From a virus, in the IMG/VR virus record IMGVR_UViG_3300033273_000350, positions 1 to 55,830 of that record: 55,830 bases of DNA, one strand, 5' to 3'. Shown here one piece after another: positions 652-16,800 of the stretch. The notes below the pieces were generated by a model, which worked only from the letters and a program-made list of their open reading frames with translations, was not told where the DNA came from and ran no database searches. Made by a program: the position numbers and the translations under genes. The first letter of the stretch is position 1. The number at the start of each line of letters is the position of its first letter.

Positions 652-653
652 AT

Positions 654-806
654 CTAGTCGCTCACACAATTTTCCTCTTCGTAATATGTCAATTTGGTTA
701 TCAAACGCTCATATTCCTCCCACATGTATTCAGAACCAGTCTGATCCTGATACACTCTACAGGCACGAATAAGTCTAGTGATATCGTCTGAGTTTAGTTT
801 CATCAT
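654..806 (-). CDS. Small acidic protein of unknown function, first gene of the PTOX-gnd operon
   Basis: A 50-residue frame (or 49 if the second ATG at 803 is used) ending two bases before the PTOX ATG. The protein is rich in Glu, Asp and Tyr, with a central EYMWEEYERLITKLTYYEEE helix. There is no signal peptide or membrane segment. I do not recognise a family. The tight packing with PTOX and gnd, and a TATAAT box about 20 bases upstream of the start, make it the likely leader gene of the metabolic operon. Confidence 0.6.
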   Translation of the reverse strand: MMKLNSDDITRLIRACRVYQDQTGSEYMWEEYERLITKLTYYEEENCVSD

Positions 807-826
807 GGTAAAAGAACTCACTTGTA

Positions 827-832
827 ATTATA
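827..832 (-). promoter_or_regulatory. Candidate -10 box (TATAAT) for the PTOX-gnd operon
   Basis: A perfect TATAAT lies on the minus strand in the 36-base gap between the DUF6321-like gene and the small gene that leads the PTOX-gnd operon. No good -35 hexamer is seen 17 bases upstream. There is no NATAAATA late box here, which suggests this operon is read by the host-type RNA polymerase outside late transcription. Confidence 0.4.
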
Positions 833-842
833 CTCAGTTAAC

Positions 843-1280
843 TCAGCAATTCCATGCTCGTAATGATTTGTTAATACGACTATCTTTGTCGTTGGCAGTT
901 TTTTTAGAAGTTAATTTCTTTTTCATTCCTTTCATTCGAGCACAAAAGGATGCCCTACGGGGATTTCCAACCTTCTTGCTTGGTGCTTTAAGGTCAGATC
1001 CAGGATTTTCTCTCTCGTAAGACTTTCTACCTTTCTCGTTAAGTCCACCTTCTTTGTTCTGCCCTGATTTTTTGGTCCAGGCAGCACCTTCTTCTAGCTC
1101 CGTTTCCTCGCGTTTGACGGATCTGATGGGGACAGCGAAACGATCCCAGGCTTTCTCTCCGTAAGAACACTCATCTCTAGTCTCAGGCTTCTGGCAGAGC
1201 TTACAGAAACGCTTTTCCTCCTTCTGCTTTTTCTCCTTGACAGCCTCAGAGAGATGTTTGATTTCTCCGTATGTTCTCAT
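843..1280 (-). CDS. DUF6321-like cyanophage protein with putative zinc site
   Basis: A 145-residue very basic protein. The first half has a CKLCQKPETRDEC cluster that could bind zinc. The second half, from about residue 68, matches from memory the DUF6321 pattern of cyanophages: a WTKKSGQNKEGGLNEKGRKS segment, then NPGSDLKAPSKK, then RRASFCARMKGMKKK, and a C-terminal SRINKSLRAWNC. Function is unknown. The charge suggests nucleic-acid binding (inference). It lies directly after gp16 in transcription order, where T4 would have gp17, and has its own late promoter box at 1306-1313, 26 bases upstream of its ATG. Confidence 0.75.
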   Translation of the reverse strand: MRTYGEIKHLSEAVKEKKQKEEKRFCKLCQKPETRDECSYGEKAWDRFAVPIRSVKREETELEEGAAWTKKSGQNKEGGLNEKGRKSYERENPGSDLKAPSKKVGNPRRASFCARMKGMKKKLTSKKTANDKDSRINKSLRAWNC

Positions 1281-1305
1281 GATAAACGACGAGGGTTTAC
1301 CAATT

Positions 1306-1313
1306 TATTTATC
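1306..1313 (-). promoter_or_regulatory. Late promoter box GATAAATA
   Basis: T4-type late promoter core on the minus strand, overlapping the stop codon of gp16 and 26 bases upstream of the DUF6321-like start codon. NATAAATA is the T4-like late consensus read by the gp55 sigma factor. Confidence 0.65.
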
Positions 1314-1719
1314 GTTTGTTGCCGTTCATTTGCTTCAGCATCTTCTGGAGCTCAGCAGTGCTACCGACAAACATAGCGTTGTTGGTGACCTTGGTTGGAC
1401 CTTTCTTTTCCTCGTCAAGATCCTTCATCTTCTTATGGAGATCCTGTAGTTTCTCAGTCATGTCTGCAACGTGCTTCATCGCCGCTACAGCGACTTCATA
1501 CGCTCTTGGGTGCCCTGACTCCTGGGCGACCTCTAAAGCGCCTCTGACCGCCTCCTGCCCCTGATCTATGAGACTGTATAACTCACCCCTGGTATATTGG
1601 TAATCCTTCTCACGGTCGTCTCTATCGACCTGTGGTGGTTGTGGTTTAGAAGGTTTGCTTTCCTCAACAGGTTCTGCACTGATATTGAGGATCTCCTCCA
1701 TGTTCTCTTCTAAGCTCAT
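1309..1719 (-). CDS. 16: Terminase small subunit, gp16-like
   Basis: A 136-residue homologue of T4 gp16 (164 aa), the small terminase subunit that regulates the gp17 motor during DNA packaging. Conserved features: an N-terminal LEENMEEILNIS element, a YTRGELYSLIDQGQEAVRGA first helix, a second helix from SGHPRAYEVAVAAMKHVADM, a KLQDLHKKMKDL helix, and the C-terminal NNAMFVGSTAELQKML. The pairing of two long central helices is the oligomerising coiled coil of the family. The ATG at 1719 is preferred over the in-frame TTG at 1728. It follows gp15 with a 5-base gap. T4 has gp17 immediately downstream; here a DUF6321-like gene and metabolic genes follow instead. Confidence 0.88.
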   Translation of the reverse strand: MSLEENMEEILNISAEPVEESKPSKPQPPQVDRDDREKDYQYTRGELYSLIDQGQEAVRGALEVAQESGHPRAYEVAVAAMKHVADMTEKLQDLHKKMKDLDEEKKGPTKVTNNAMFVGSTAELQKMLKQMNGNKR

Positions 1720-1724
1720 AGTAA

Positions 1725-2522
1725 TCAATAGAATGTAATACCTTCATTAAATCCAAAATCATCACCAGCTTCAACCAGCGCATCATCATTTACATCAATG
1801 ACACCATCTGTGTTAATATCTGTTTTTGCTTTGGGTGTATATGTTCTTGTGACGGTTCTTCTGCTGACAGATGCATCACCCATTGTTTCATGAATGATTG
1901 CTTTTCTAATAACGTCAGATGTGTTATAAGGACCATAGAGGTAAGACTTCATAGTGAAGTTCAATGTATATGCAATGTATCTACGTTGCATAAAAGTATC
2001 ATCCCACTCATCCTCTCCACTAATGCCATTTAGAACAATAGCAACATCACGTTTCTCATTCATGTCAGGAATCATGTTAAGAGTGATGCTAAAAGATGGT
2101 TGGAAGTAGGGCAAGATCTGCTCCACAATCTGTAGTGCATCATCCTGAGACTTTGCAATAACACCCAGTTCAAAATTTATATTATAAGGAACAGGAACAT
2201 ATTGAACTCTGACCTCATCGCCATTACCATCAATGACTGTTTTGTATTTTTGAATTGGTGATGTCTTACGGGTAGAATCGTAATCAATGCCTGTCATCTC
2301 GAAATAGAGACGTGGTAAAGTGATCGATACTTTAGATGTAGATTGATCAGTTAAACGAACTAAAAACTTTTGCTTAGGTCCGTAAGCAAGGGGAACCTTT
2401 TGTGCTTCTAACACTTCTCCTGTATCAGGATCAGTGCTCTTCATTTCAATATTATTGAAGAGCGTACCAAACGCAATAATGTTCTTACGAACAATTTGAT
2501 TATAAAAATGTGATCCTAACAT
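1725..2522 (-). CDS. 15: Tail sheath stabiliser and completion protein, gp15-like
   Basis: A 265-residue homologue of T4 gp15 (272 aa), which forms the hexameric ring capping the contracted or extended tail tube and sheath and receives the neck. Conserved features: the N-terminal MLGSHFYNQIVRKNIIAFGT with FNNIEM, and the central EQILPYFQPSFSITLNMIP, which is nearly the T4 EQILPYFQPHFNTTM. The C-terminal tail differs from T4 and contains DINTDGVIDVNDDA, a dockerin or EF-hand type calcium loop pattern. Its start overlaps the gp14 stop region, and gp16 follows after 5 bases, so gp13-14-15-16 form one transcription unit. Confidence 0.92.
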   Translation of the reverse strand: MLGSHFYNQIVRKNIIAFGTLFNNIEMKSTDPDTGEVLEAQKVPLAYGPKQKFLVRLTDQSTSKVSITLPRLYFEMTGIDYDSTRKTSPIQKYKTVIDGNGDEVRVQYVPVPYNINFELGVIAKSQDDALQIVEQILPYFQPSFSITLNMIPDMNEKRDVAIVLNGISGEDEWDDTFMQRRYIAYTLNFTMKSYLYGPYNTSDVIRKAIIHETMGDASVSRRTVTRTYTPKAKTDINTDGVIDVNDDALVEAGDDFGFNEGITFY

Positions 2523-3649
2523 TAGATACTACCTGTAAAATTGCCATACTCACCGAATGGGTTGCCCTCAGTCCAGTCAATAATATCATCAGCACTATCT
2601 TCAATCTCCCTGTTCTGGGCATAATATGTTGTGCTCGTATTATTTAGAGTGTCATATGACTCAGGACTCCACTTGGCACCTGAAGTTTGACCAGTAATTA
2701 CTTCAGCGGTAGTGAAGGTTCCTGTTCTATTGATGACTTGGAGAGATCTAGTTGCTGCATCCCAGGACTTGACTTCTGCTCTGTTATCTTTAGGTGAGTA
2801 GTCAATAGTAACAGTAGGAGCAGTTGTATACCCACTGCCCCCGCTAGTAATAAGGATACCAGTAACAAGACCAGTCGAGCTAACCGATGCAGTGGCTGTT
2901 GCTCCATTTCCTCCGCCTCCTGAAATAGTTACCGTTGGTGGTAATGAAGCATTGTAATGCAATCCACTATCAGTAATTGTGATGCTATCTACAGCATCTC
3001 CACTAATTGTTGCTGTTGCTTTAGCAAGGAACTCGTCACCAACAACTTCTTCACCAACAATAAATGTTCCTGTGCCACCAGGATCCATAACAAGTTTGAT
3101 AGCAGCGCCAAACTCTAGTTCGACATCATCAATCTCATCAACACCAGTCTCAAAACTATCACTACCGAGTTCGTAGAGTTCACATGTTAATGTGTAGAAT
3201 TGAATTTTACCAAACTGGAAAAATGGTGATTCTTTCTCTACAAATTTAATTTCGTAAATGTCTTTTGTTAGAGGAAAGTAAAGCAAATCTCCCTCATTAG
3301 GTCTGCCATCATATGTAAGAGTTGGTTGTTCTGCTGCTACAACTTCATCCCATCGTCTAGTAGAGACACGGAATACAACTTCATCTGTGATACGTAGACC
3401 AAACTTGCTGACAAACTCTGCACCTTCAGCAAATCCAGTTACGTTCTGTAGGAGCATTTCAATCTGGAACTGCTCCTGATACTTGGAGTATCTTACCTCT
3501 TCAAGTGTATTATCTTGTAGAAGAGTTCTTGGCAGATAATAGATATCCGATCCGAACAACTTTACTTGTTCGTCCACAAGATCCTGGTAGAGTGTTTGCT
3601 CTCCAGAATCACCTTGATAGTATGTTGGAAAATAAGGACTAGTTGGCAT
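2522..3649 (-). CDS. 14: Neck protein, gp14-like, with inserted Gly-Tyr beta repeats
   Basis: A 375-residue homologue of T4 gp14 (256 aa), part of the neck that joins capsid and tail. The N-terminal part, MPTSPYFPTYYQGDSGEQTL through FGLRITDEVVFRVSTRRWDE, and the segment FFQFGKIQFYTLTCELYEL match the gp14 family. The end, with NREIEDSADDIIDWTEGNPF, also fits. The extra length is an insertion at roughly residues 185-285 holding two copies of the GxxYxxxPTVTI repeat (SGLHYNASLPPTVTI and GSGYTTAPTVTI) joined by glycine-rich linkers. The same repeat occurs in the fibre and baseplate giants of this window. One base separates it from gp13. Confidence 0.9.
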   Translation of the reverse strand: MPTSPYFPTYYQGDSGEQTLYQDLVDEQVKLFGSDIYYLPRTLLQDNTLEEVRYSKYQEQFQIEMLLQNVTGFAEGAEFVSKFGLRITDEVVFRVSTRRWDEVVAAEQPTLTYDGRPNEGDLLYFPLTKDIYEIKFVEKESPFFQFGKIQFYTLTCELYELGSDSFETGVDEIDDVELEFGAAIKLVMDPGGTGTFIVGEEVVGDEFLAKATATISGDAVDSITITDSGLHYNASLPPTVTISGGGGNGATATASVSSTGLVTGILITSGGSGYTTAPTVTIDYSPKDNRAEVKSWDAATRSLQVINRTGTFTTAEVITGQTSGAKWSPESYDTLNNTSTTYYAQNREIEDSADDIIDWTEGNPFGEYGNFTGSI

Positions 3650-3650
3650 C

Positions 3651-4451
3651 TTATCCGATCATATCCATTGGTGGAATAGCATACTTACTGAGAACTTCGG
3701 ATTCTATTTTCTCAATTTCTGCTAGTGCGTCTGTATATAACTCTCTTCCGTTGAGGGTGATACCACCAGGCAACTGAACATTGTTATACTTAATCAGGTT
3801 CTGACCCCACTGCTTCTTCATGAGAGCAGTAGCATACTTCTTGACAAACATATCATTGTACATCTCCGTGGCATCTGTGGGATCAACGAGACGGTGACAC
3901 TCAATCAGGATATTAGATCCTTCTTTGAGGAAGTCTTTGTCTAGATCCATGTAGAGACGATCACGACGCATTGTGTATCTGAACTGCTGGAATGATCCGT
4001 TGTTGAGGACCATATCTAGAGTTTCTAGATACTGCTTGTTCATATAGTAGTTGAGAATATCAAGTGATCCAAACGCATACAGATCGTTTAAGAACAACTG
4101 ATACTCAACGCCAAAGAGGTTGGAACGGATTGAATTGCTGACTAAACCAAATACTCTAGTAATACCAACTACATGATCTGGAACTGGAATGTAATTAGTG
4201 GTTTCTTTCCAGTCGGTTGTACCACTAGATGTTGTTACACTAGCAGCAAACCTTGTCTTATCGTCAGCAGTGATTTCGTGGAATAGATATGCACGCTCCA
4301 TACCATTGTAACAGTTCTCTTGGAAGAACTGGATGGTATCATCAATAACGTTGTTTACCTGCTCGTCGTCAATATTGACCTGAAGGACAGGCTCACCCAA
4401 CTGTCTCTTACAATATGTTATAAGATCAGCTCTTGAGTTTGGAGATGCCAT
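3651..4451 (-). CDS. 13: Neck protein, gp13-like
   Basis: A 266-residue homologue of T4 gp13 (309 aa), the neck protein acting with gp14 to close the filled head. The N-terminus, SRADLITYCKRQLGEPVLQV followed by NIDDEQVNNVIDDTIQFFQE, is the family signature, as is the conserved LEGSNI-like stretch FLKEGSNILIECHRLVDP. The ATG at 4451 is taken as start. An in-frame TTG at 4460 sits closer to the AAGGGA of the upstream hairpin and is a possible alternative. Transcription comes from the late box at 4499-4506, which overlaps a terminator. Confidence 0.92.
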   Translation of the reverse strand: MASPNSRADLITYCKRQLGEPVLQVNIDDEQVNNVIDDTIQFFQENCYNGMERAYLFHEITADDKTRFAASVTTSSGTTDWKETTNYIPVPDHVVGITRVFGLVSNSIRSNLFGVEYQLFLNDLYAFGSLDILNYYMNKQYLETLDMVLNNGSFQQFRYTMRRDRLYMDLDKDFLKEGSNILIECHRLVDPTDATEMYNDMFVKKYATALMKKQWGQNLIKYNNVQLPGGITLNGRELYTDALAEIEKIESEVLSKYAIPPMDMIG

Positions 4452-4460
4452 TACACACAA

Positions 4461-4498
4461 AAAATCCCTTCTATCCTATTTAGGAAGAAGGGATTTAG
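4461..4498 (-). terminator. Factor-independent terminator upstream of gp13
   Basis: On the minus strand an 11-bp stem AAATCCCTTCT / AGAAGGGATTT, extended inward by TCCTA/TAGGA, is followed by a run of six T. It ends transcripts coming from the three small genes at 4502-5284. Its 5' arm lies directly downstream of the late box at 4499-4506, so a transcript starting from that box would lose part or all of the 5' arm and escape termination. Confidence 0.8.
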
Positions 4499-4506
4499 TA
4501 TTTATT
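4499..4506 (-). promoter_or_regulatory. Late promoter box AATAAATA for the gp13-14-15-16 unit
   Basis: T4-type late core on the minus strand overlapping the stop codon of the 64-aa gene, about 48 bases upstream of the gp13 ATG. The expected start site falls inside the 5' arm of the adjacent terminator. Confidence 0.65.
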
Positions 4507-4696
4507 CAGCAGGTGCTTCTTCTACTGGAGCATCTGCTTCTGGTTCACTTTCAAGGAGTCCTAGAGTTTCAAGACCGCCTTGTAGTTTGATCTTGTACTC
4601 TTTTGCCTTAATAAGGTTTTCTTCTAGTTCAGCAATTTGCTTTTCTGTGTTTGCAATTTGCTCTTCAAAGTTTTTCTTTAGTGCTGAGGGGTCCAT
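4502..4696 (-). CDS. Small coiled-coil protein, late gene of unknown function
   Basis: A 64-residue protein starting MDPSALKKNFEEQIANTEKQ. Residues 5-45 form an unbroken heptad-type coiled coil (IANTEKQIAELEENLIKAKE), and the tail is very acidic (ESEPEADAPVEEAPAE). No family recognised. It has its own late box at 4724-4731 and ends at the gp13 terminator and promoter, so it is expressed with virion genes and may be a minor structural or assembly protein (inference). The ATG at 4696 is preferred over the in-frame GTG at 4705. Confidence 0.6.
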   Translation of the reverse strand: MDPSALKKNFEEQIANTEKQIAELEENLIKAKEYKIKLQGGLETLGLLESEPEADAPVEEAPAE

Positions 4697-4723
4697 AGTT
4701 ATCACAATGAATAGTGTGTGTAT

Positions 4724-4731
4724 TATTTATT
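4724..4731 (-). promoter_or_regulatory. Late promoter box AATAAATA
   Basis: T4-type late core on the minus strand, 28 bases upstream of the ATG of the 64-aa coiled-coil gene. Confidence 0.6.
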
Positions 4732-4735
4732 ATAC

Positions 4736-5023
4736 TCAAACTTCGCAGTCTGAGCAAGGGTTTCTTTCTTTATACATTTCAATTTGTCTGACTTCATTAT
4801 AAAAATGAATATCTGTTTTATCTGGGTCGTAGTCTAGTGGGAATCGATATCTACATCCAGGACATTCATACTCCAATAAATTTTCTTTGTCCCAATCCCA
4901 CACTTCTATCAAATAATAATAAAAATATGGAGGACTGTGATTGTGTCTACTTTCTAAAGGTATTGGATTTCCAATCCATTTCTCACCACATTCTGGGCAA
5001 TGTGTGTAATGTTTCGTATTCAT
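4736..5023 (-). CDS. Zinc-ribbon protein of unknown function
   Basis: A 95-residue protein with three Cys-x2-Cys knuckles: CPEC at residues 9-12, CPGC near residue 54, and CSDC near the C-terminus. The first two would form a four-cysteine zinc ribbon. The middle is rich in aromatic residues (PPYFYYYLIEVWDWD). It may bind nucleic acid or protein. I do not recognise a named family. It lies between two small late genes, 6 bases downstream of the 84-aa gene, and is probably cotranscribed with it from the late box at 5316-5323. Confidence 0.65.
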   Translation of the reverse strand: MNTKHYTHCPECGEKWIGNPIPLESRHNHSPPYFYYYLIEVWDWDKENLLEYECPGCRYRFPLDYDPDKTDIHFYNEVRQIEMYKERNPCSDCEV

Positions 5024-5029
5024 AAAAAA

Positions 5030-5284
5030 TTAATTTCTACTTTGAGTATCTGCGCTGTCTACTTTGTACTGATTGATTAATTCTTGCGTCCAGATTGCTC
5101 TAGCAATACCTCGTACCTTTTCGTCAGCTTCTTCAATAGACTCTCCAGGATTATAAGTCCTGACGACTTCTCTGTCACTGATTACTTCCTCACCTTTATA
5201 AATGGTTTCTTTTTTAGTAACTCTAATCTGACCAGCTGGGTAAGTCTCTACTTTAGTTACTTCAACCTCTTCTCTTAAAGACAT
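5030..5284 (-). CDS. Hypothetical late protein, 84 aa
   Basis: Starts MSLREEVEVTKVETYPAGQI and continues as charged beta-type sequence (IRVTKKETIYKGEEVISDRE), then a helix EADEKVRGIARAIWTQELIN. No family recognised. The ATG at 5284 is preferred over the TTG at 5299. A late box lies at 5316-5323, 31 bases upstream. It is divergent from the halogenase operon across an 78-base intergenic region that contains promoters for both directions. Confidence 0.6.
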   Translation of the reverse strand: MSLREEVEVTKVETYPAGQIRVTKKETIYKGEEVISDREVVRTYNPGESIEEADEKVRGIARAIWTQELINQYKVDSADTQSRN

Positions 5285-5315
5285 TTGTTGTAATCTCAAA
5301 TAACTAGTTGTGTAC

Positions 5316-5323
5316 TATTTATT
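5316..5323 (-). promoter_or_regulatory. Late promoter box AATAAATA, divergent to the halogenase operon
   Basis: T4-type late core on the minus strand. Its last bases abut the -35 hexamer of the plus-strand promoter at 5322-5350, so the two promoters overlap back to back. Confidence 0.6.
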
Positions 5324-5350
5324 GACTTTTGAAACTCAATCAAGTATGAT
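5322..5350 (+). promoter_or_regulatory. Sigma70-type promoter of the halogenase operon
   Basis: TTGACT at 5322-5327, an exact 17-base spacer, and TATGAT at 5345-5350. The first gene's ATG is at 5363, giving a leader of only about 6 bases made of A and T with no Shine-Dalgarno. This host-like promoter contrasts with the late boxes on the other strand and suggests early expression of the island (inference). Confidence 0.65.
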
Positions 5351-5362
5351 AAAAATAAAAAA

Positions 5363-5944
5363 ATGTCTGTAGTCGTGAATGGTTGGTTTCCAACGTCTAT
5401 CTACGTTGCTGAATCCATCGTATCTAGTAAGTATAATGATAGTCTTAAACAAAGATCCTTGATGATAGAAGAGGTATCAAAAAATGGAGCTTATAACTGG
5501 AACTGCAACACATACAATACTCTTGGAACTTTTGACTTAAAAACAGATCCTCTTTTTTCTGATCTACTAAAAGAGGTAGAATTTCATGTAAAAAAATTTA
5601 CAGAGATGCATGGGTCTGATTATGAATATCATTGTAAAGATAGTTGGTTGAATGTCAATCATAAAAATTCTTACCAAGAATACCATTGTCATTCCAATTC
5701 AACTTTTAGTGCTGTGTACTATATTTCTACACCACCTGGGTCTGGAAAAATACATTTTGAAAATCCATGCGAACCAGACATGTTACCAATACAAGGAATT
5801 AAAAACCCAACTGAACTTAGTTTCAGAACATGCCACTACGAACCAGAAGAGGGGACATTGTTAATTTTTAGATCATACATGAGACACATGGTAGAGTTAT
5901 GCAAAAACGAATTACCAAGAATAACAGTGGCATTTAATTTTTAA
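5363..5944 (+). CDS. 2-oxoglutarate/Fe(II) oxygenase, TIGR02466-like (island gene 1)
   Basis: A 193-residue protein of the double-stranded beta-helix 2OG-Fe(II) oxygenase superfamily, which couples 2-oxoglutarate decarboxylation to hydroxylation of a substrate. The core SWLNVNHKNSYQEYHCHSNS followed by FSAVYYISTPPGSGKIHF resembles the TIGR02466 type. The iron ligands are probably H108 or H110 with the distal H175 in MRHMVELC, and R186 in PRITVAF would bind 2-oxoglutarate. The opening, NGWFPTSIYVAE, is the usual entry strand. Substrate unknown. It is first in a six-gene plus-strand operon and has a one-base gap to the next gene. A paralogue of the same subfamily is at 7138-7695. Confidence 0.8.
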   Translation: MSVVVNGWFPTSIYVAESIVSSKYNDSLKQRSLMIEEVSKNGAYNWNCNTYNTLGTFDLKTDPLFSDLLKEVEFHVKKFTEMHGSDYEYHCKDSWLNVNHKNSYQEYHCHSNSTFSAVYYISTPPGSGKIHFENPCEPDMLPIQGIKNPTELSFRTCHYEPEEGTLLIFRSYMRHMVELCKNELPRITVAFNF

Positions 5945-5945
5945 A

Positions 5946-6527
5946 ATGAAAGAAAATTTTATAGTAGTAAAAAATTTTTTAGATCTATCTTTTGCTCAAT
6001 CTTTGCATGAGTATCTAAAGTTTTCCACTCAGGTTTCGATCTTGAGAGGAGAAGATATCTACACCAGTAAAAATGTTCCTGGGTGTGTTTGTCAAAAAGC
6101 AAACGACTTGATGCTGGATGCGGTGCTAAAAACATCAAAGAAAAAAATTGAAGACATAACTGGATTAAATTTAGTTCCAACATATTCTATGGCTAGAATA
6201 TACACTAACGGAAATGAGCTCAGGAAACATATAGACAGACCGTCTTGTGAGATTAGTGTAACTGTAAAACTATCAGATACAAAAAATTACAACTATCCAA
6301 TATACATGGATGGTCATGAAGTCTTTTTAGAAGATGGTGATGCGGTTGTGTATAAAGGGACTGAGGTTGAACATTGGAGAAACAAGTGTGAGTTTCCCGA
6401 GAAGTATTTTCTTGGACAGTTGTTTTTGCATTATGTTCAATTAGATGGGTTGCATAGCGATTGTGCTTATGATAGAATAGAAGATAGGAAAAAGGTATTT
6501 GAAGATTTGGTATGGCAGAAACTATGA
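5946..6527 (+). CDS. 2-oxoglutarate/Fe(II) oxygenase, prolyl-hydroxylase-like (island gene 2)
   Basis: A 193-residue protein of the same superfamily but a different branch. The metal triad is visible as H95-x-D97 in LRKHIDRPSCEISVTVKL and H143 in GTEVEHWRN. The segment FLEDGDAVVYKGTEVEHW is the usual beta-turn before the distal His. The 2OG-binding basic residue is not obvious: the strand after the His reads EKYFLGQLFLHYV, with a Lys but no clear Arg. Hydroxylation of a protein or small molecule is the family role; the substrate here is unknown. The stop overlaps the start of the methyltransferase (ATGA at 6524), so translation is coupled. Confidence 0.78.
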   Translation: MKENFIVVKNFLDLSFAQSLHEYLKFSTQVSILRGEDIYTSKNVPGCVCQKANDLMLDAVLKTSKKKIEDITGLNLVPTYSMARIYTNGNELRKHIDRPSCEISVTVKLSDTKNYNYPIYMDGHEVFLEDGDAVVYKGTEVEHWRNKCEFPEKYFLGQLFLHYVQLDGLHSDCAYDRIEDRKKVFEDLVWQKL

Positions 6528-7141
6528 TCATCAGTCAACAACCCTACTACGACTACAAAGATGCTCAGACTGATATTAAAAGTATCATTCATGCTATTAA
6601 TCTTTTGTATAGAGGTTCGGAAGTTCACCCAAATGGATTAGTTGGTGCTGAGATTGGAGTTTTCAGAGCAGACAGTTTTATGACTATTCTGCACAATTGT
6701 CCAAACGTAACAAAATTGCATGGTGTAGATGCATACAAACCCTACGCAGATTTTTTGAAAGACGAACCATCAGATGGACAACCAGCATATGTTGTTGATG
6801 AAAAGCAAATTGAATATGTAAAACTTACTTCATACCATCACCAAAAATATTCTGGATGTCAAGAAAAAATTGTATTCCATGAAATGGATAGTAATGATGC
6901 GGCAAAAGAAATTGAAGATGAAAGTTTAGATTTTATTTTTTTGGATGCTTGTATGACTGGAGAACAAGCATACAATGATATTGAAGTTTGGTATCCAAAA
7001 GTAAAATCAAATGGATTGTTTGCTGGTCATGATTGGAATTCCTTAGATGTTCAATCTGCTGTAGTAAAATTTATAGGGAGAAATCCTAGTATTTCGGATT
7101 GGAGTAGATATGATAATACTTGGGCATGGATTAAACCATGA
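6524..7141 (+). CDS. Class I SAM-dependent methyltransferase (island gene 3)
   Basis: A 205-residue Rossmann-fold methyltransferase of the Methyltransf_24-like type. Motif I is GAEIGVFRADS at residues 41-51, the acidic loop after strand 2 is HGVDAYKPY, and strand 4 is DFIFLDACMTG with the FLDA motif at 139-142. It is followed by the conserved GLFAGHDW (168-171). Family members methylate sugars or small molecules and sometimes sit in glycan or natural-product clusters. The ATG at 6524 overlaps the previous stop as ATGA, like the two downstream junctions of this operon, so I prefer it. The ATG at 6512 would add four residues. Confidence 0.82.
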   Translation: MIISQQPYYDYKDAQTDIKSIIHAINLLYRGSEVHPNGLVGAEIGVFRADSFMTILHNCPNVTKLHGVDAYKPYADFLKDEPSDGQPAYVVDEKQIEYVKLTSYHHQKYSGCQEKIVFHEMDSNDAAKEIEDESLDFIFLDACMTGEQAYNDIEVWYPKVKSNGLFAGHDWNSLDVQSAVVKFIGRNPSISDWSRYDNTWAWIKP

Positions 7142-7695
7142 TAGAAAATTTATATCCAACGCCAATCTATTCTGCTATCGTTGATAATTTTAACGATATC
7201 CAAAAAGAAATGTACTCTACTATTTCTAAATTGACTTTTGAAATGGTAGAGGAATGGGGACAAACACATTTTGTATCTTCATCTACATTCAATGATTCTT
7301 ATAAAATGAGGATCTTTGAAGATGAACTACATAAACATGTAGTAAATTATTGTTCAGAATTAGAATTCCCTGTAAGAGATTACAAACTCAAGTCTTGGTT
7401 TACAAAATTTGAAAAGGGAAACTACGGACACATTCATAGTCATGGTCATCATGACATATCAGTCTGCTATTATGTAAAGACTAAAGGGAGTTCTGGAAGT
7501 ATTTTCTTTGAAACTCCAGTTGAATCTGCTACAACTTCTTTTGTGTATAATAAAAAATATGCTAACAGGTATTGGCACCCACCAGTAGAAGGAAAACTCT
7601 TATTATTTCCTGCGTGGTTGAGACATGGAATTACTACAAACACAACTGATACTGAAAGAATCAGTTTTTCTGCAAATATAGAGTTTAAAAGATGA
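7138..7695 (+). CDS. 2-oxoglutarate/Fe(II) oxygenase, TIGR02466-like (island gene 4)
   Basis: A 185-residue paralogue of island gene 1. It opens with the entry strand NLYPTPIYSAIV and carries KSWFTKFEKGNYGHIHSHGH followed by HDISVCYYVKTKGSSGSIFF. The cluster of histidines at 98, 100, 102, 104 and 105 includes the first metal ligands. The distal H163 is in AWLRHGI, and R174 in ERISFSANI is the likely 2-oxoglutarate-binding Arg. It is coupled on both sides by ATGA overlaps, to the methyltransferase upstream and the halogenase downstream, which implies roughly equal expression of the three. Confidence 0.8.
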   Translation: MIENLYPTPIYSAIVDNFNDIQKEMYSTISKLTFEMVEEWGQTHFVSSSTFNDSYKMRIFEDELHKHVVNYCSELEFPVRDYKLKSWFTKFEKGNYGHIHSHGHHDISVCYYVKTKGSSGSIFFETPVESATTSFVYNKKYANRYWHPPVEGKLLLFPAWLRHGITTNTTDTERISFSANIEFKR

Positions 7696-9185
7696 AAATT
7701 GTAATTGTTGGTGGTGGAACTGTTGGTTGGTTGACTACCTTTGTGATGTCAAAAATTAGACCAAAACATCAGTATATTAATATCACCAGTTCCGACATTC
7801 CAACCATTGGTGTTGGGGAAGGAATTACTGGATTGTTTAGGAGAATTCTGACAGATCCTTTTTATGAAATTGACGAGTATGATTTTTTTGTAAAAACAAA
7901 ATCAGTTCCAAAACTTTCAATTAAATTTGATGGATGGAATAGTAACAACACTTCTTTCTTTCATCCTATTGAAGGAACGATAACATCTGATAAATTTATT
8001 GATACTGCATTATTTTACAGCATTCTAAAAGGATATGATGTTGATGATTGCAGTAAGACTGGGTATCTTTCTAATAGAAATAAAATCAACTTTGAACTTT
8101 CTAACGGCAAAGTAAATATCCATGACCCAGGACTACATGCTTATCATGTTGACAATGAGGAAGTTGGAAAGTATTTTAAAAATCTCTCATTAAAAAATAA
8201 AGTTACTTGTATCGATGCAAAAATCGATGAGGTGATTTGTGAAAATAATAAAATTAAATCAATTATCCTTTCTTCTGGCGAAGAAATAACCGCAGATTTT
8301 TTTGTTGATTGTAGTGGTTCAAAAAAAGTATTAATCAAAAATCTCTCAGATAAAATCGTTGACTACAACAAATATCTGCCTCTAAATGAAGCACTACTTT
8401 ATAGTGTTGATGAGTCTGATAGTGGCATACCTCCATACACATCATCAACAACAATGAATAGTGGATGGAAATTTAAAATACAAAAATCTAATTCTATTGG
8501 CAGAGGATATATTTACTCAAATTCGTTTTCAAATGAAAATAGAGTTTTGCAAGAGTTGAATAATTTTTATGGTAAAAATGTAAAGCATATAAAGACAGTC
8601 AAATTTAATAATACTAGACAGAAAGAATGTTTTTCTGGAAATTGTTTAGCACTGGGTCAATCTAATTACTCTGTCGAACCTCTACAAGCAACTGGAGTTC
8701 ACTGTGCATTAGTTCAATTAAACGATTTTATGAGAAATTGTTTTAGTGATGATATCACTATAATGCTGAATAGTGTTGCTGTAAAAAAGTACAACGAACG
8801 AGTTGCAAAAATTTGTGATGATCTAGTAGATTTTATAATGGTTCATTATACTGGCGGAAAAACCAATACTGATTTTTGGAAATATGTTACATATGATAAA
8901 CCAGTGTCAGATAAAGTTTCTGACATTTTAGATCTGGCAAAAACTAGATTAACTAGGTGGGATGATTTTGATACTTATTATGGATGTGCCAATCAAATTC
9001 TTTGGAATTCAACTCTAGCTGGACTTGGACACTTTAAAAAAGAAACCATACAACAAGTTTTTTCAACTTGGGGATTATATGAAGACATGTTAGAACAAGA
9101 ACTGCAGGAACACATTTTAGAAATGAGAAATCTTAGTTCTGTTTGTTCCAACACAAAATCAGTATTAGAAGTTCTTTTGAAATAA
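7692..9185 (+). CDS. Flavin-dependent halogenase, VirX1/tryptophan-halogenase family (island gene 5)
   Basis: A 497-residue flavoprotein. The N-terminal FAD site is IVGGGTVGWLTT (family consensus GGGxAGW). The second signature IGVGEGITGLFRRIL matches the halogenase IGVGEATxPxxR. K74 in VPKLSIKFDGW aligns with the catalytic lysine of PrnA-type enzymes (FKLGIRFxxW). The C-terminal FAD contact, GNCLALGQSNYSVEPLQATG, matches the family's EPLxSTG. The WxWxIP motif that usually marks halogenases reads GWKFKIQ here, near residue 258. The family oxidises chloride, bromide or iodide with FADH2 and oxygen and places it on an electron-rich aromatic. A cyanophage relative, VirX1 of phage Syn10, was reported to prefer iodide. 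The substrate here is unknown, and no flavin reductase is seen in the window. Confidence 0.9.
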   Translation: MKIVIVGGGTVGWLTTFVMSKIRPKHQYINITSSDIPTIGVGEGITGLFRRILTDPFYEIDEYDFFVKTKSVPKLSIKFDGWNSNNTSFFHPIEGTITSDKFIDTALFYSILKGYDVDDCSKTGYLSNRNKINFELSNGKVNIHDPGLHAYHVDNEEVGKYFKNLSLKNKVTCIDAKIDEVICENNKIKSIILSSGEEITADFFVDCSGSKKVLIKNLSDKIVDYNKYLPLNEALLYSVDESDSGIPPYTSSTTMNSGWKFKIQKSNSIGRGYIYSNSFSNENRVLQELNNFYGKNVKHIKTVKFNNTRQKECFSGNCLALGQSNYSVEPLQATGVHCALVQLNDFMRNCFSDDITIMLNSVAVKKYNERVAKICDDLVDFIMVHYTGGKTNTDFWKYVTYDKPVSDKVSDILDLAKTRLTRWDDFDTYYGCANQILWNSTLAGLGHFKKETIQQVFSTWGLYEDMLEQELQEHILEMRNLSSVCSNTKSVLEVLLK

Positions 9186-9186
9186 T

Positions 9187-9777
9187 ATGGAATATCAGTG
9201 GTATCTAAATGTAGAAAATAATGTACCTTGGGTAAAAGCAGAATCTGTATTTACAGATTTTGAAATAAAAAAAATTATAGAGATTGGTAAAGACCCAGAA
9301 AGATCAACACCAACAGAAGCAAAACTTGGACTTGATGGCACTAAAGATTCAAAATATAGAAAATGCAATCTGTCATGGATACGTTCTGACCTAAAGGATA
9401 ATCAATGGATCTTTAGGCACCTTTCAGATGTTCTAAATGAAATAAACAAATTTCATTTTAAGTTTGATGTTGATATGATACAAAATCTTCAATTCACAGA
9501 ATATACTTCAGACGGAGATTTTTATGGAAAACATTTAGATCTTGGTTATGAAGAATCTAGACCAAGAAAAATCAGTTTTAGTATTCAACTTTCAGATCCA
9601 TCTGAATATTCTGGTGGTGAATTAAATTTATACTACGAAAACTCCCCAGAAATTGCAGATAAAAAAAGGGGATGCCTTACAGCATTCCCCTCTTATGTTC
9701 TTCATGAAGTAACACCAGTTACACAAGGAACCAGATATGCTCTAGTTGGTTGGGTATCTGGTCCTAAATTTAAATAA
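9187..9777 (+). CDS. 2-oxoglutarate/Fe(II) oxygenase, PKHD/PiuC-like (island gene 6)
   Basis: A 196-residue member of the PKHD-type branch. The opening VPWVKAESVFTDFEIKKIIE is typical, and the catalytic core reads QFTEYTSDGDFYGKHLDLGY with H116-x-D118. It continues with SGGELNLYY, FPSYVLHEVTPVTQGTRYAL with the distal H173, and the 2-oxoglutarate-binding R183. All catalytic residues are present. Relatives hydroxylate proteins or siderophore-type molecules. It starts one base after the halogenase stop and ends immediately against the stop of the convergent glycine-rich fibre gene. A minus-strand terminator is embedded in its codons at 9661-9690. Confidence 0.85.
   Translation: MEYQWYLNVENNVPWVKAESVFTDFEIKKIIEIGKDPERSTPTEAKLGLDGTKDSKYRKCNLSWIRSDLKDNQWIFRHLSDVLNEINKFHFKFDVDMIQNLQFTEYTSDGDFYGKHLDLGYEESRPRKISFSIQLSDPSEYSGGELNLYYENSPEIADKKRGCLTAFPSYVLHEVTPVTQGTRYALVGWVSGPKFK
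9661..9690 (-). terminator. Minus-strand terminator inside the plus-strand oxygenase gene
   Basis: Read on the minus strand, GGGGAATGC, a short loop, GCATCCCC (one bulged base) and seven T. It lies about 90 bases past the stop of the glycine-rich fibre gene and so ends the long late fibre transcript before it runs antisense into the halogenase island. The same bases encode KKRGCLTAFPS of island gene 6. Confidence 0.72.
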
Positions 9778-10803
9778 TCAATAAGGCCAAGAGATAACAA
9801 TTCTTCCAGGGGATCCTGTAGCATCTGTGTTTCCTCCAGTTCCTGCACCTTGGTTGTCAACATCTGCATTATTACCAGGGCTTCCAGGATTAGATCCACC
9901 ACTACCACCACTAATTAGAACTGCTGATGTAACGGAACCAGCGGTATATCCTGATCCACCACCGCCGCCACCCATGTCGAGTGGTTCTTGATAGCAACCT
10001 GCACCACCGCCGTAGTATCCTCCTCCACCACCAGCTCCATATCCAGAAGTGCAATCTCCTCCACTTAACTGACCAGCATTAGCTGTACAGTTACTGCTTC
10101 CAGCACTTCCCTGAGATCCACCACCACCGTTGTTGTTTGAATAATTAGATGTTCCAGAAGCACCATTGGTGCCACCACCGCCTCCACCGTTACAGGAGTT
10201 TGGGTTTCTAGTAGCACCACCGCCACCGCCTCCACCAGCGACTAGTAGTGCTCTAGAGAAAGAACCAGTTTGTGGATTAGATCCAGAGAATACTGAGTTA
10301 CCACCAGTAAATAAACCAGAAAGACCACCACCAGATCCAGGACCCCAAGTATTTTTTGCTTTACCTCCACCACCATACGTTCTCGATGGAGACCTTTGAA
10401 TTCCAGCTTGACCAACAACAATGGTGTATGCAGTTCCTGGTACAACATCAAGGTTTCCAGAACAATGCCCACCGCCACCAGCTCTTCCACCATCAGACCA
10501 TCCAGAGGTGCCGCCGCCTCCGCCGCCGCCTCCCCAGACTTTAACTTTAATCTTGGTGACAGAATCTGGAACAGTCCAAGATTGATCTGATCCAGTATAA
10601 ACAAATGCTTGTGATCCAACTGGGTGATCTTCTTGTCCAGGGACATCAACCCAATCAGCGCCATTATAAATTTTTAATTTTCCATCATCACTGTCCCAAA
10701 CAGTCAATCCAACCTCACCTGTTGGTAAGTTTGCAGTTGTATAAGAGGGGAATTTTACACCAGTTCCAGTGGCGTTTAATCTTCCAACATTTAGTTCCGA
10801 CAT
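9778..10803 (-). CDS. Glycine-rich fibre/adhesin protein
   Basis: A 341-residue protein. It starts MSELNVGRLNATGTGVKFPS, then a short fibre-type domain with VWDSDDGKLKIYNGADWVDV. From about residue 75 follows a glycine-rich sandwich domain opening SWTVPDSVTKIKVKVWGGGG, and then repeated runs of Gly broken by Asn, Ser, Tyr and Cys (GAGGGGGYYGGGAGCYQEPL). Such domains resemble polyglycine-rich phage tip adhesins, so a role in host recognition at the end of a fibre is likely (inference). It lies downstream of the 3573-aa fibre with a 25-base gap and no late box, so it is cotranscribed with it. Its stop abuts the convergent oxygenase stop. Confidence 0.75.
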   Translation of the reverse strand: MSELNVGRLNATGTGVKFPSYTTANLPTGEVGLTVWDSDDGKLKIYNGADWVDVPGQEDHPVGSQAFVYTGSDQSWTVPDSVTKIKVKVWGGGGGGGGTSGWSDGGRAGGGGHCSGNLDVVPGTAYTIVVGQAGIQRSPSRTYGGGGKAKNTWGPGSGGGLSGLFTGGNSVFSGSNPQTGSFSRALLVAGGGGGGGATRNPNSCNGGGGGGTNGASGTSNYSNNNGGGGSQGSAGSSNCTANAGQLSGGDCTSGYGAGGGGGYYGGGAGCYQEPLDMGGGGGGSGYTAGSVTSAVLISGGSGGSNPGSPGNNADVDNQGAGTGGNTDATGSPGRIVISWPY

Positions 10804-10828: not shown

Positions 10829-13800
10829 TTAGTAAATTGTCCAAGAAGTACCAGCACCAACTGTTACTACATTTCCACTATTTATAGTGATTTGACCGTA
10901 ACTGTATAGAATTGAGTTCTGTGGTGTGGTTAAAGTTTCATTGATGGATGTTCCAGCAATATTTATAATTCCGCTAGCATCAATCCACTTAACAATGCCA
11001 TTGACATAGAGAGCACCAGTAACGTTGAAGTCTCCATCAACATCTAATGTGTAAGCAGGATCTGCTTTATTAATACCGACAGCAGACAATCTGTAGATAT
11101 CATTGCCATTAGACGCTTCTGTCCATCTTGAAGTAACGAATTCTGCATTATCTTGGAATAGTTGACCATTGATATTGACATCACCCTGAACATTTAAAAT
11201 ATAGTCTCTATTGACTGGGTTTGATGGATCAGTATTATCTACACCAGAGAATGCAGTTGTGTTTATAGCAGTAGCATTGGTAGAACCATTAAATGCAAGA
11301 ACTGGTGCTTGTGGAGTTGCTAGAGCAGTTCTCCAATCAACTCCACCAAGAGAATCGGAAGCGGAGATCTCGAATACATCAGCACCAGAGTTTAGTGCGT
11401 TACCAAATCTCCAGCTTCTACCGCCACCTGCTCCAGATCCTGCGCCCAAGAACTGAACTTCAGCACCATTATTTCCACTACCATCACTAATCTTGACAGA
11501 ATCTTTTGCATCAATAACAGCACCAAAAATAGTTGCCCAACGTTTTGAAACAGTACCTAAATGCTGTGTCTCTGTTGCTCCAGGGTACGTGTCACCAGAG
11601 TTGCTAATTCTGAGTCTTTCTGCGTTTGAAGAAATGCCAGTCTTAGTTCTGAAAATTAGGTCACCAACATTTGCTGAGCCTCTTTCAGCTGAAATTCCCC
11701 ATTCTGCTGGATCTCCAGCAGTAGTTCCATGACGGAGAACCATACCAGATTCACCACCGTTGGCAGCATTCCAAACAGTAAACTTGTATTGTGAAGTTTG
11801 TACCGCAAGTGCATTATTTGCTACATATGTGCCGCTGCCATCATCTGAATATACATTGAATATAGAGGGACCACTAGTTGTACTTCCGACAGTTGTTTTA
11901 GCATTAGTAGAATCTACATATAAAGTTCCAGCATTAACAGTTAAATCATCTTCTACCGTTACAGAAGCAAGGAAATCTGATCTACCAGAAACACTAAGTG
12001 CCTGGTCTGCTTCGGCAACATTAGTGATCAGGAGAGCACCAGTCATAGTGTCTCCAGTCTTCAATACGTTATCTGAAGCAGCACCTGTTAGATCTGCTGT
12101 GATTGTTCCAGCAGCAAAATCGCCATTGGTGTCTCTCATTACAGCAGACTTGAGAGATGCTGTAGATGCTACGTTGGTGGAATTGAAATTAACGTTGCCT
12201 GCGTTCCAAATAATAGATGAATTTACAGTGAATTCATTTTCATCTACAACAATAACATTAATTGAGCCAGAACCTTCGGTCGCATCACCACCACTTGCAA
12301 CAATTGCAGAGTTAAATGTCGGTGCATTGTTGTTATCTAAAGCAGGAGCAGCAGAAGAATTAAAATGAATGTAGGGAGTAGATGCAATGTTATTTCTTCT
12401 ACCCAATCTTACAAATCCATTACCAGCATTATTACCAATTTCTGCTGGTGTATACATGTTATTGTCTTCATTCAATGCATATGCATCAAATCGTCTTTGG
12501 ATATTTGCAGTTCCAAGAAAAACAGCATTGGTGAAGCTACCACCAGAAGACAACCTCCCTTCTAAGATAGTATAACTTTCTGCCGAATCATTTGCATCAA
12601 TGTGTTGGATAGCATTGTCAACAAAGAAATCACCAACGTTACCAGCGCCAGTGTTGTCGTATAGATTGATGCCACCAGGATATCCAATTCTATAAATTCC
12701 AGTTGCACTGATATCTAATACGTCTCTAAAGAAGATTCTATAAGAAGTATCTGTTCCATTATAAGATTTAAGTTCAATTTTATTTCTAAATTTGGTTGTA
12801 TCTAAGAATCTTGGTAAATACGTTTCCCAGAGTTGCTGAGGATCATTAGTTTTTGGATCATTAATATTGAGGTTCCATGGTTGCTGATACCAAGTTCCTT
12901 GTTTTGTGTCAAGTAAGTCAGCATTTGGACCTAAACCAGATACAGCATTTCCAGGACCATCATTTTCAGAAGTCCAGACTTTCGCCCAGTTACCAAATTG
13001 GTTCAGTACAGCACCAGAACCACGGAGGTAGATGTTATCATCATTACCAAATGCAAGTTGTCTTACACCACCGCCATTAACAGTTGAAGTATCACCAGCA
13101 GTTCTGATTGACATTACCAAATGCTTATTTGCATTTTGGATTCCAGAAACAACTTGAGGATATGCTGTGGAAAGACCGTCAGCAGTATCAAAAACGGTTC
13201 TCATTGTTAAACCGTTTGTAAATTCAAATGGAGCTCCATTTGAATTGGGGTTTTGGTCATTGGTGTTTACTTTGTCCGTTTCACCAGAACTACCAAGGAC
13301 ATTAAAGTCATAATCAACTTTTTTCTGCATTTGCAGAGGTCCGATGGAATCTTGGTAGAAGTTTTGTCCATCCAGATAAACCGAACCTTGTGCGCCGTCA
13401 AGTAAGTCAGCGTCTAGTCCACTAGCAATTGTATTTGACTGATCTTTCAGTGTAACTGAACCATTTGATCCAATTTCAAACTGAACTTTATTAAATCTAG
13501 CAACACCTGCAGTACCAAATGGATCTGCTGAAATTGTTGCGTCAGTTACTCTATCAACATCAAGACCAATGAAACCATGAGATCTTGTTGAGGTAGTTGT
13601 TTTTGCTTCTAATACAGCGTTACTTCCTGGTCCAATTTCTGTTGGAATAGTAATAGTAAAATCGCCATTTAGTGAAGCACTTTCATACTTCTGGAAGTTA
13701 GAACCAGCATTTGTAATGGTTACACTTTCGATAGAACCATTTGAATCTACGACAATATTAGCTTCAAGTCCGATACCATTTCCAACATTTGCACCCGTAA

Positions 13801-16800
13801 GTTCAATGTTTTTATAATCTCCAGGAGTGTATCCAGTACCAGCATTTGCAATTAAAATCTCGGCAACAAAGTCACTCTTAGTTTGTAATGAATCAATCTT
13901 GACTGGAGATGGATTGCGGAAAAACTCGATAAAAGTTCCTGCCGTAATTGTTACACCACTAGTGATTGGGTTGTTTAGAGCAATTGTTGTCAAACCACCC
14001 GTGCTGGCAATACCATTGATTGTTGTACCAGCAGGAATACCTGTAACACTTTCACTTACATCATGTCCAACAACAGCATCATCAATAATATCTGCTTCAT
14101 TAAAAATTAACTGACTAGAACCTCCAACTGCGTTTGCTACAATAGGAGCGAAGTATCTTCTTTCAGCACCTTTAACAGTTTGTACTGCTGGAGCATATCT
14201 GGTGTCGCCACGCAAGAATGTAAAGGAGTTTGCTGATCCTGTACCCAGAAGCGTAGAACTAATAACATTACCAGCAGTCGCTGTAAGATCTCCAATATTA
14301 ACAGCTTGGGCAGAAAGAGATACCCAGTTAGCATTATCAAAAGCGGATGTGTTAACAGCTCTATTGATGTTGATAACATTTGCTGGTACTGAATTGTCAT
14401 CAATAGAATCAGTATCTTCAATTTTAATATTATTGATGATATCACCATACAGTCTACTTTCAATAAACGCATCTGCTGTTGCTTGGGTGCCACTACCAGG
14501 AGGTGCAGCAATGGTAACAGTTGGTGCTGAGGTATAACCATAACCACCATAATATCCAGCATTCTCTGTGATGGTTAGTGTGACAACTTCACCACCAGCA
14601 ATTGTACAAACTGCAGTTGCTAGAACTCCAGTTCCACCTGGGGAAGCAATCGTTACTGTTGGAGCAGTTGTATATCCAGATCCACCATTTGTAATGTTAA
14701 GTTGATATACAACACCTTGTCTATATTCAGTTGCTTGGATTCTTCCTCCAGTTGGAGTTCCTGTATAAACTCCACCAACTCCGTTGTTGCTAAATGTTAG
14801 GGTTGGATCTACGGGGAATCCAAGGAACAAACTATCATTGTCATTGTTCAGAATGAATGAAGCTTGTGTGTCTTGCTGAATTGCGATATCACCAGCAAGT
14901 GCTCCTTCTAGAGCAAGTCTTCCCGCTTGATCGGCAACTGTGTAGACACTGAATGGTCTGAGTGCTGGGATCTGATCTAGAGAAATCTTACCAGAATCTG
15001 TAAGTTCAACCAGAGATCTTGGAACAGCATTTGTAGAGTATGGTTTGTTGATGTATGCACCAAGATTGTTGGTGATAAAATCTCTAACTGCCTTTTGTGT
15101 TGGTAGTTTAGAGTCAGATGTATTTGCTCCACCAAGGGTGTTATCAGCAGAGAATCCAGTAACAACAACAGTACCACCCTTCAATTTCAAGAATTCAACT
15201 TCAGAGATGGTAACTGTACCCGTGAAGGTAATAGCACCAGTTCTGTTTTCGATTCTTGCAAATGTACCAACCTTAAAGTCTCCAAGTTCATCAGTACCAG
15301 AGACATAAACACGACCATAGTTTTGATTGGGTCCGTCCACTTGTTCATACGCTTCAATCTTGGTGCCACCATTTTCTGGTAGTGCATTATATGAAATACC
15401 TGCACCAGCATATTCCCATGTGTGGGAAGAAGAGTTAACAATAGAAGGTCTATGGAAAGCAATTGTGGAATTAGCAGAACCAGCAGGTGTTAACTCTTGC
15501 TGTAGTGCTGTTAAACCACTAATGGTTGCTCCATCAGAATCTCTAACCAGTACAAGAGGATCATTACCATCACCATTTGCTAATGTGATAGTTGCTGTAA
15601 ATGGTGCTGCAACAGAGACAGCACTTACATCATCAATAAAGAATTCAATGTTGCTTGCCTGTGTTGAGTAACCAGGAATCTTGGCAATGTAATGCTCCAG
15701 CGGAGCTCTACCAAGACCAGTGAGAATCATGGTAGTTCTACCAGCAGCAGTCTGACTAATTGATTGAATCGTTGCTTGGTCAAAAGAATAAGCATCTCTT
15801 CTAAATCCGTTTGCTCTCAGTGCATATACACCAAAGTTTGTTGCAGAGTTGGTAATAGATGCATAACCACCACTCTCAGCTAAGACACCATCTTGACAGA
15901 AGATACAGAAAACCGAAACCAACTGAACATATCCATCATTCTTAATACGATATCCAGTTCCACCTTGAGACACAATAGTGAATGCTGCAGCAACCATGGA
16001 TTTACCTTGGTTGGGGAATGATGCAGAACCGTCGTCTTCTAGACCAGGGAAAGGACAGTTAGGTTGCTTAACCTTATCTCCATCAATTTCAGCGCCGCTA
16101 CCACCAGCAGAAGAGATTACAGAAGCATTCTGAGTGTATGGTGATGCTTCAATGATTGGGTAGTCATCGTAGTCGGCACGAACTGCCATTCTGGTTCCCT
16201 GTGTATCGTAGATATAACTATCTGGATACGTAATAATCTGTACGGTATCGTATAGAGTTCCGAAAGTTTGCGTAGTAGATCCAGGAACAATAGCAGTTCC
16301 ACTTGATGGATTTTCTGCATATTCCAAAATACCATCCAACAATGCCATCTCTGTATTGATGGTTGATTCAACATTAGCACAAGCAAGAGCAGGAGTGCTG
16401 GAAGAATAAGCAGTTACAGAATCTGCGCTTGTTCTTACAAATGTATGTACAGATTGTGGAGAATGTGATACAGCGTTATTGGTAGCACCCTCAAAATAAT
16501 GTGTAGATTGTGGTTCGTGCTTGATTGCTTGTGCTGTAGCACTAACAAATGTATGTACAGAACCAGCAGCAGTGCCAGCACCGCCAACATTGATAGTAAA
16601 TGTACCATCTTGACGCTCAAGACCATTAGCAGATGCACTTACAAACGTATGAGTACCAGTGTAAGAAGAAGGACCAATGTTAATATCAAACGTATTTGTG
16701 GTGACGTTAGAAATTTCTAACCAGCGACCCGATGGGTAATCATATCCAGCACGAGGATAAGACTTCTGTACTGTATTGCCATCTAGAACACATGTATATG

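Follow-up and report, generated by a model that had tools for sequence, protein, structure and literature searches.

Which substrate is served by a block of six modifying enzymes that is set among the structural genes of a marine cyanophage? This question is raised by positions 5363-9777 of the virus record IMGVR_UViG_3300033273_000350, of which the whole stretch of 55.8 kb was analysed (in the following, the window). The block, here called the island, codes for four 2-oxoglutarate (2OG)/Fe(II) oxygenases, one S-adenosylmethionine (SAM)-dependent methyltransferase and one flavin-dependent halogenase-family protein. It is located between the gene of the head-tail adaptor gp13 and a glycine-rich fibre gene, on the strand opposite to the late structural genes. 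With a probability of roughly 0.4, the island may be regarded as a self-contained tailoring cassette at a host-recognition locus, whose enzymes most likely modify the tail-fibre (adhesin) protein post-translationally. This reading is favoured because one oxygenase gene (gene 6, OXY3) forms a fixed pair with the fibre gene, because the site is a hotspot for such oxygenases in other phages, and because the modules of the halogenase VirX1 and of the phages S-RIM44 and Sf-CH3 also have a fibre context.

The six genes and their common organisation

All six open reading frames (ORFs) of the island are encoded on the plus strand (gene 1, 5363-5944; gene 2, 5946-6527; gene 3, 6512-7141; gene 4, 7138-7695; gene 5, 7692-9185; gene 6, 9187-9777), and the junctions from gene 1 to gene 6 amount to +1, -16, -4, -4 and +1 bp. 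Three ATGA overlaps were listed in the first-pass annotation, and those at 7138 and 7692 agree with the junctions of -4 bp. The third, at 6524, probably does not mark where gene 3 starts, because the copy in contig L002 (84% identical) starts with MAET like the window at 6512 and has no methionine at codon 5; from 6512, the overlap measures 16 bp. Upstream, the island is preceded by a divergent gap of 63 bp, and downstream no gap is left. A sigma70-type promoter (TTGACT-17-TATGAT, 5322-5350, plus strand) is situated within the divergent gap, 12 bp upstream of gene 1. The pattern TTGACW-N16-18-TATRAT has this single match in the 55.8 kb (0.31 expected), and both hexamers are conserved at the corresponding position in L002 and in a further contig, L016, in spite of a different spacer in the latter. 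For the plus strand, a late T4-type promoter was rejected, since no TATAAATA is present there.

L002, an independent contig of 13 kb, contains the island genes at the equivalent site and in unchanged order (82-90% protein identity) and in addition one extra PF13759-like oxygenase. In L016 five of the six genes are present and gene 4 is absent. The ratio of nonsynonymous to synonymous substitutions (dN/dS) between the window and L002 ranges from 0.07 to 0.17, and all six genes are under purifying selection. The GC content of the island is 32% in comparison to 41% for gp13-16, and the synonymous divergence (dS) from L002 is lower in the island (0.45-1.3) than in gp13-15 (1.5-2.2); these values were obtained by the simple Nei-Gojobori method and are near saturation above about 1, so that the lower value of the island counts as supporting evidence only. 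With regard to GC content and dS, the island looks like a cassette that was exchanged as a unit. The earlier view that the six genes form one set is supported by the common promoter, the overlaps and the gene order shared with L002 and L016, and the recurrence of the same set and order in an independent contig speaks for more than chance.

Genes 1 and 4 code for 2OG-Fe(II) oxygenases of the PF13759/TIGR02466 type (Pfam 2.9e-22 and 4.9e-17; both above the cut-off of NCBIfam TIGR02466) and possess the HxH...H metal pattern, as judged by sequence only, which in gene 1 reads HxH...H...R. OXY3 is a PKHD-type 2OG hydroxylase (PF13640, 7e-15; H116xD118...H173...R183) that matches the PKHD hydroxylases PiuC and Sbal_3634 in the PDB at 1e-6; its metal triad H116/D118/H173 and the arginine R183 are invariant among four relatives. 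Gene 2 (PHROG 2954) gave no match in the Pfam search and none in the PDB by sequence, even with a profile. The AlphaFold2 model (mean predicted local distance difference test, pLDDT, 92.6) is closest to the folds of the prolyl-4-hydroxylase (P4H) of Pseudomonas putida, of PHD and of the collagen prolyl hydroxylase vCPH of PBCV-1, and the HxD...H site (H95, D97, H143) is invariant in 16 relatives. On the basis of this model, gene 2 is a predicted 2OG oxygenase of the prolyl-4-hydroxylase fold. Cyanophage proteins annotated as 'ferrochelatase' (including 5946-6527 of the window, PHROG 2954) and as 'DNA endonuclease V' are often 2OG oxygenases. Gene 3 belongs to the SAM-dependent methyltransferases (Methyltransf_24, PF13578, 4e-13; aligned with three relatives). 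Four oxygenases of three kinds (genes 1, 4 and 6 by Pfam, gene 2 by predicted fold and HxD...H site) and one methyltransferase had also been named in the first-pass annotation, and this assignment was right.

The fibre/OXY3 pair and the tail fibre-gp13 site

OXY3 meets the gene of a glycine-rich fibre-like protein (9778-10803, minus strand; PF21722 and PF12810 above cut-off, PHROG 1589) stop to stop. In all six contigs covering this junction (the window, L016, L017, L018, L110 and L121), 0-1 bp lie between the two stops, and the fibres are, where measured, 49-77% identical to that of the window. The halogenase module is reversed relative to the pair in L017, L018 and L121, and therefore the pair persists where the genes around it are rearranged. 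More distant relatives of OXY3 (46% identity in L122, and those below 45%) are not located beside this fibre gene. Contig L018 also holds a gene for a ferredoxin-dependent bilin reductase (PF05996, 12820-13503) between its island variant and gp13.

A PF13640 or PF13759 gene was found within 3 kb upstream of gp13 in 10 of 20 isolate genomes (2.5 expected by random rotation, p = 2e-4); the genomes were selected for carrying a halogenase or for a similar gp13, and some of them are interrelated, so that the p value is somewhat optimistic. The tail fibre-gp13 interval is a hotspot for 2OG oxygenases, with about nine in S-RSM4, four in HTVC008M (on the opposite strand), three in S-CAM4, and one each in S-WAM2, S-RIM32 and Sf-CH1b. 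Halogenases and oxygenases occur together at this site in S-RIM44 and Sf-CH3. VirX1 itself (CPUG_00131 of cyanophage Syn10; L010, 1-9863) comes after genes for a tail fibre, a glycine-rich protein and two tail-fibre-assembly proteins, and 2OG oxygenases follow; the glycine-rich protein belongs to PHROG 1589, the same family as the fibre of the window, and a second halogenase is present in the module.

More extreme than the island are arrays in nine IMG/VR contigs (L027, L028, L031, L032, L035, L047, L053, L063 and L065), in which three to five halogenase-family genes are interspersed with 6-11 2OG oxygenases. Where the contigs were included in the tree, these halogenases come from different clades and are no recent duplicates. 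All three arrays that were checked (L027, L032 and L035) contain a phage GroEL; L027 and L035 also have tail-fibre genes, and L035 in addition one gene for fibre assembly and one for GroES. Beside halogenases, genes of PHROG 7084 recur in several phages (L010, 9075-9863; L104, 14804-15511; L105, 6080-6808; L027, 17790-18518).

If the fibre is the substrate, the oxygenases would hydroxylate its side chains, the methyltransferase might add a cap to the product or to an acceptor, and the flavoprotein of the halogenase family could oxidise or halogenate an electron-rich aromatic residue, with reduced flavin and 2-oxoglutarate presumably supplied by the host. The outcome would be a chemical variation of the adhesin surface and, in consequence, of receptor binding. 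Fibre modification had been mentioned before as one option; as an inference from gene pairing, it gains genuine support from the hotspot, the fibre/OXY3 pair and the fibre context of VirX1, S-RIM44 and Sf-CH3.

Several observations weigh against this explanation. The island has an early-type promoter, which would not be expected of genes that process virions late, and the equivalents in S-RIM44, Sf-CH3 and S-RSM4 run with the late genes, so that the timing is inconsistent. The fibre/OXY3 junction could be a linkage inherited from a common ancestor. Among the isolates, an oxygenase is missing from the site in S-H9-1 and ACG-2014h, a single one is present in Sf-CH1b, and the 217 2OG oxygenases of the 20 genomes are scattered, for the most part at a distance from fibres. 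The structural match found for gene 2 is unspecific (template modelling score, TM, about 0.6), and the small-molecule enzymes SnoN and AsqJ are nearly equal in score.

The surrounding genes identify the virus. Positions 1-4500 of the window share 84% nucleotide identity with Synechococcus phage S-RSM4 (98% covered), its nearest relative in the structural region, and gp13 (3651-4460, minus strand), which marks the lower edge of the site, is 93% identical to gp13 of Sf-CH1b. By these identities the window phage is assigned to the Kyanoviridae, as a marine cyanobacterial virus. The space from gp13 to the island is taken up by three small genes (4502-5299, minus strand), which are conserved in L002 and L016. 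Beyond the glycine-rich fibre gene follows a giant tail-fibre/structural ORF of 3573 amino acids (10829-21550, minus strand), in a position that the tail fibre gene occupies in S-RSM4 and Sf-CH1b.

The halogenase-family protein

Gene 5 codes for a protein of the flavin-dependent halogenase family (PF04820, Trp_halogenase, 259 bits versus a cut-off of 21, residues 2-447), as had been noted before. The flavin adenine dinucleotide (FAD) motif GxGxxG is kept (G7, G9 and G12 invariant), and so is the catalytic lysine (K74, corresponding to K79 of PrnA), which is present in all aligned proteins covering this position. The AlphaFold2 model (pLDDT 93.4) resembles PyrH with a TM-score of 0.90. Two features of tryptophan halogenases are missing. 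At the position of E346 in PrnA, gene 5 possesses a glutamine (Q332 in EPLQATG), which was found in 26 of 26 near relatives with a readable lysine, and the WxWxIP motif is broken (WKFKIQ; WMFEIF in L016). In PrnA, E346 deprotonates the substrate; the exchange E346Q slows the enzyme by two orders of magnitude, and K79A abolishes its activity (PMC5727139). Gene 5 is a member of the halogenase family by sequence and predicted fold, and because of the glutamine and the broken motif its halogenating activity is doubtful.

It is a serious possibility, though short of an even chance, that gene 5 no longer halogenates and is a flavin hydroxylase, or that it is a poor halogenase limited to activated substrates; both would be compatible with modification of the fibre. 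The retention of K74 and of the FAD motif, together with a dN/dS of 0.12, nevertheless points to an active, selected enzyme. Moreover, E346 aids the chlorination of indole and may be dispensable for phenolic substrates.

The label 'VirX1-type', given in the first-pass annotation, had to be abandoned. In a quick maximum-likelihood tree gene 5 is placed in a different clade from VirX1, VirX1 scores below PrnA, PyrH and RebH, and the two catalytic hallmarks are altered. A scan of genome contigs for bacterial relatives with an unspecific peptide yielded one match of 29% identity among the matches listed and is uninformative on absence. In S-PM2, Syn1, S-RIM44 and Sf-CH3 (L003-L006, around 11714-12004), a glutamine-type halogenase gene is located away from gp13 and is preceded by an overlapping gene of about 95 amino acids, which is T4-GC 860 in S-PM2 and Syn1.

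As a tentative generalisation, marine T4-like phages may possess a transferable system that modifies their own tail-fibre adhesins post-translationally, by oxidation and in some lineages also by halogenation. The native substrate of VirX1 would then be a fibre protein, and the window would represent the version with a glutamine-type flavoenzyme. No report of the native substrate of VirX1 was found in the literature searched. If the generalisation is true, phages would vary receptor binding through chemistry besides sequence.

Alternative functions and comparison with known systems

Alternatively, the enzymes might act early on a small molecule of the host, such as an aromatic metabolite, an amino acid or a natural product, with the site serving as a convenient integration spot. 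PF04820 proteins and many 2OG enzymes with this fold use small molecules, the promoter is host sigma70-like, which is typical of early phage genes, and VirX1 reportedly iodinates many small aromatics in vitro (Gkotsi 2019, as cited elsewhere). In the ORF lists of the island and the annotated window, however, neither a flavin reductase nor a scaffold-making gene was found, and the six abutting ORFs, with 63 bp upstream and none downstream, leave no room in the island for a precursor peptide. The 'complete pathway' proposed earlier is thus unsupported, and a cluster for a natural product or for a ribosomally synthesised and post-translationally modified peptide was rejected, since no precursor or scaffold gene is present. 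As the fibre/OXY3 pair and the repeated occurrence of relatives in fibre modules also speak against it, a small-molecule substrate appears unlikely, though not negligible. A role in defence or counter-defence was likewise dismissed, since PADLOC gave generic 2OG matches only.

The island genes could also be unrelated morons gathered at a permissive site, with no common function. Their content varies between phages, relatives of the methyltransferase (51%) are found in the SbcD operon of Syn30, and 37 of 81 halogenase loci from IMG/VR consist of halogenase pairs near gp15 without oxygenases; the similar gene order suggests that these pairs represent one lineage. The first-pass annotation had considered halogenases occurring mostly alone as evidence against a joint module, and the neighbourhood search bears this out by half. 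A 2OG oxygenase within 4 kb was detected at 28 of the 81 loci, 22 of which have three or more, so that most loci lack one. Isolates show a modest enrichment at 3 kb (8 of 15 loci versus an expectation of 3.9; p = 0.02); at 5 kb it falls short of significance, whether loci (p = 0.12) or genes (p = 0.065) are counted, and this association does not serve as main evidence. A search starting from the methyltransferase revealed oxygenase-methyltransferase modules without a halogenase in several phages, and the halogenase therefore looks like an optional member. A chance gathering is rather improbable in view of these recurrent modules, the single promoter, the overlapping genes and the identical set and order in L002, with one gene fewer in L016.

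Many of the halogenase pairs (L043-L092) are situated behind a gp15-like tail gene; the gp15 profile had drifted to a larger relative, and PHROGs confirmed two matches as tail sheath or sheath stabiliser. In L044, the one such locus that was checked, the pair is preceded by a NUDIX gene and followed by one whose product has a heptose kinase/adenylyltransferase-like domain. Genes for Nol-like carbamoyltransferases occur together with halogenases and oxygenases in L019 (5777-7417) and L011 (2063-5438), which hints at glycan-type tailoring in some lineages.

Modification of host proteins, for example translation factors, ribosomal proteins or surface proteins, for takeover of the cell must be considered improbable. 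It would agree with the early-type promoter, and the nearest fold of gene 2, the P4H of P. putida, was solved in complex with EF-Tu. The module of S-RIM44 also carries a JmjC_2 protein, a fold known for ribosomal hydroxylases. On the other hand, the fibre linkage and the hotspot at the fibre locus would be left unexplained, and it is hard to name a conserved host target for a gene set whose composition differs so strongly from phage to phage. The published proposal that the main effect of 2OG oxygenases is to reduce or adjust the 2-oxoglutarate pool, so that the NtcA-driven nitrogen regulation can be exploited (Sullivan et al. 2010, PMC3037559), fits the many copies per genome (24 in S-SCSM1, PMC9602691), but is very improbable here, since a catalytic sink would require neither a variety of subfamilies nor a halogenase, a methyltransferase or a fibre linkage.

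Halogenases and 2OG oxygenases are individually known in cyanophages (20 and 76 of 153 genomes, respectively; PMC10452541), and analogous modules exist in sequenced isolates, for example in S-RIM44 at the same site. A description of such modules as a fibre-linked unit was not found in the open-access literature searched.

With the tryptophan halogenases PrnA, PyrH and RebH, gene 5 shares the fold, the FAD motif and the catalytic lysine, whereas it differs in the glutamine replacing the catalytic glutamate, in the broken WxWxIP motif and in its low identity (22-24%). VirX1 (PDB 6qgm) is likewise a PF04820 phage enzyme near fibre genes and a 2OG cluster, but belongs to another clade, has kept the catalytic glutamate and is less than 30% identical to the protein of the window. 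The bacterial and viral prolyl-4-hydroxylases, such as the P4H of P. putida and vCPH of PBCV-1, resemble gene 2 in the predicted fold and the HxD...H metal site, although their sequences are not detectably similar to it.

As a variable gene cassette inside the structural module, the island recalls the hyperplastic region g15-g18 of cyanomyoviruses, which, as far as it is relayed in PMC2984593 (Millard 2009), carries photosynthesis and carbon genes. The island, however, is not found between g15 and g18 but on the opposite side, in the tail fibre-gp13 interval, and contains oxygenases in place of such genes. The block upstream of g13 in S-RSM4 occupies the same site and combines a homologue of the glycine-rich fibre with its oxygenase genes; unlike in the island, no halogenase or methyltransferase is annotated there and the genes are co-directional with the late genes. 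The modules of S-RIM44 and Sf-CH3 differ in their late-gene strand, in their VirX1-clade halogenases with glutamate at the position of E346, in additional JmjC_2, DUF6445 and PHROG 7084 genes and in that no Methyltransf_24 gene was seen; the glutamine-clade halogenase of S-RIM44 is located away from the module. Nevertheless, like the island, both combine one or more halogenases, several 2OG oxygenases and the oxygenase family labelled 'ferrochelatase' between the tail-fibre genes and gp13.

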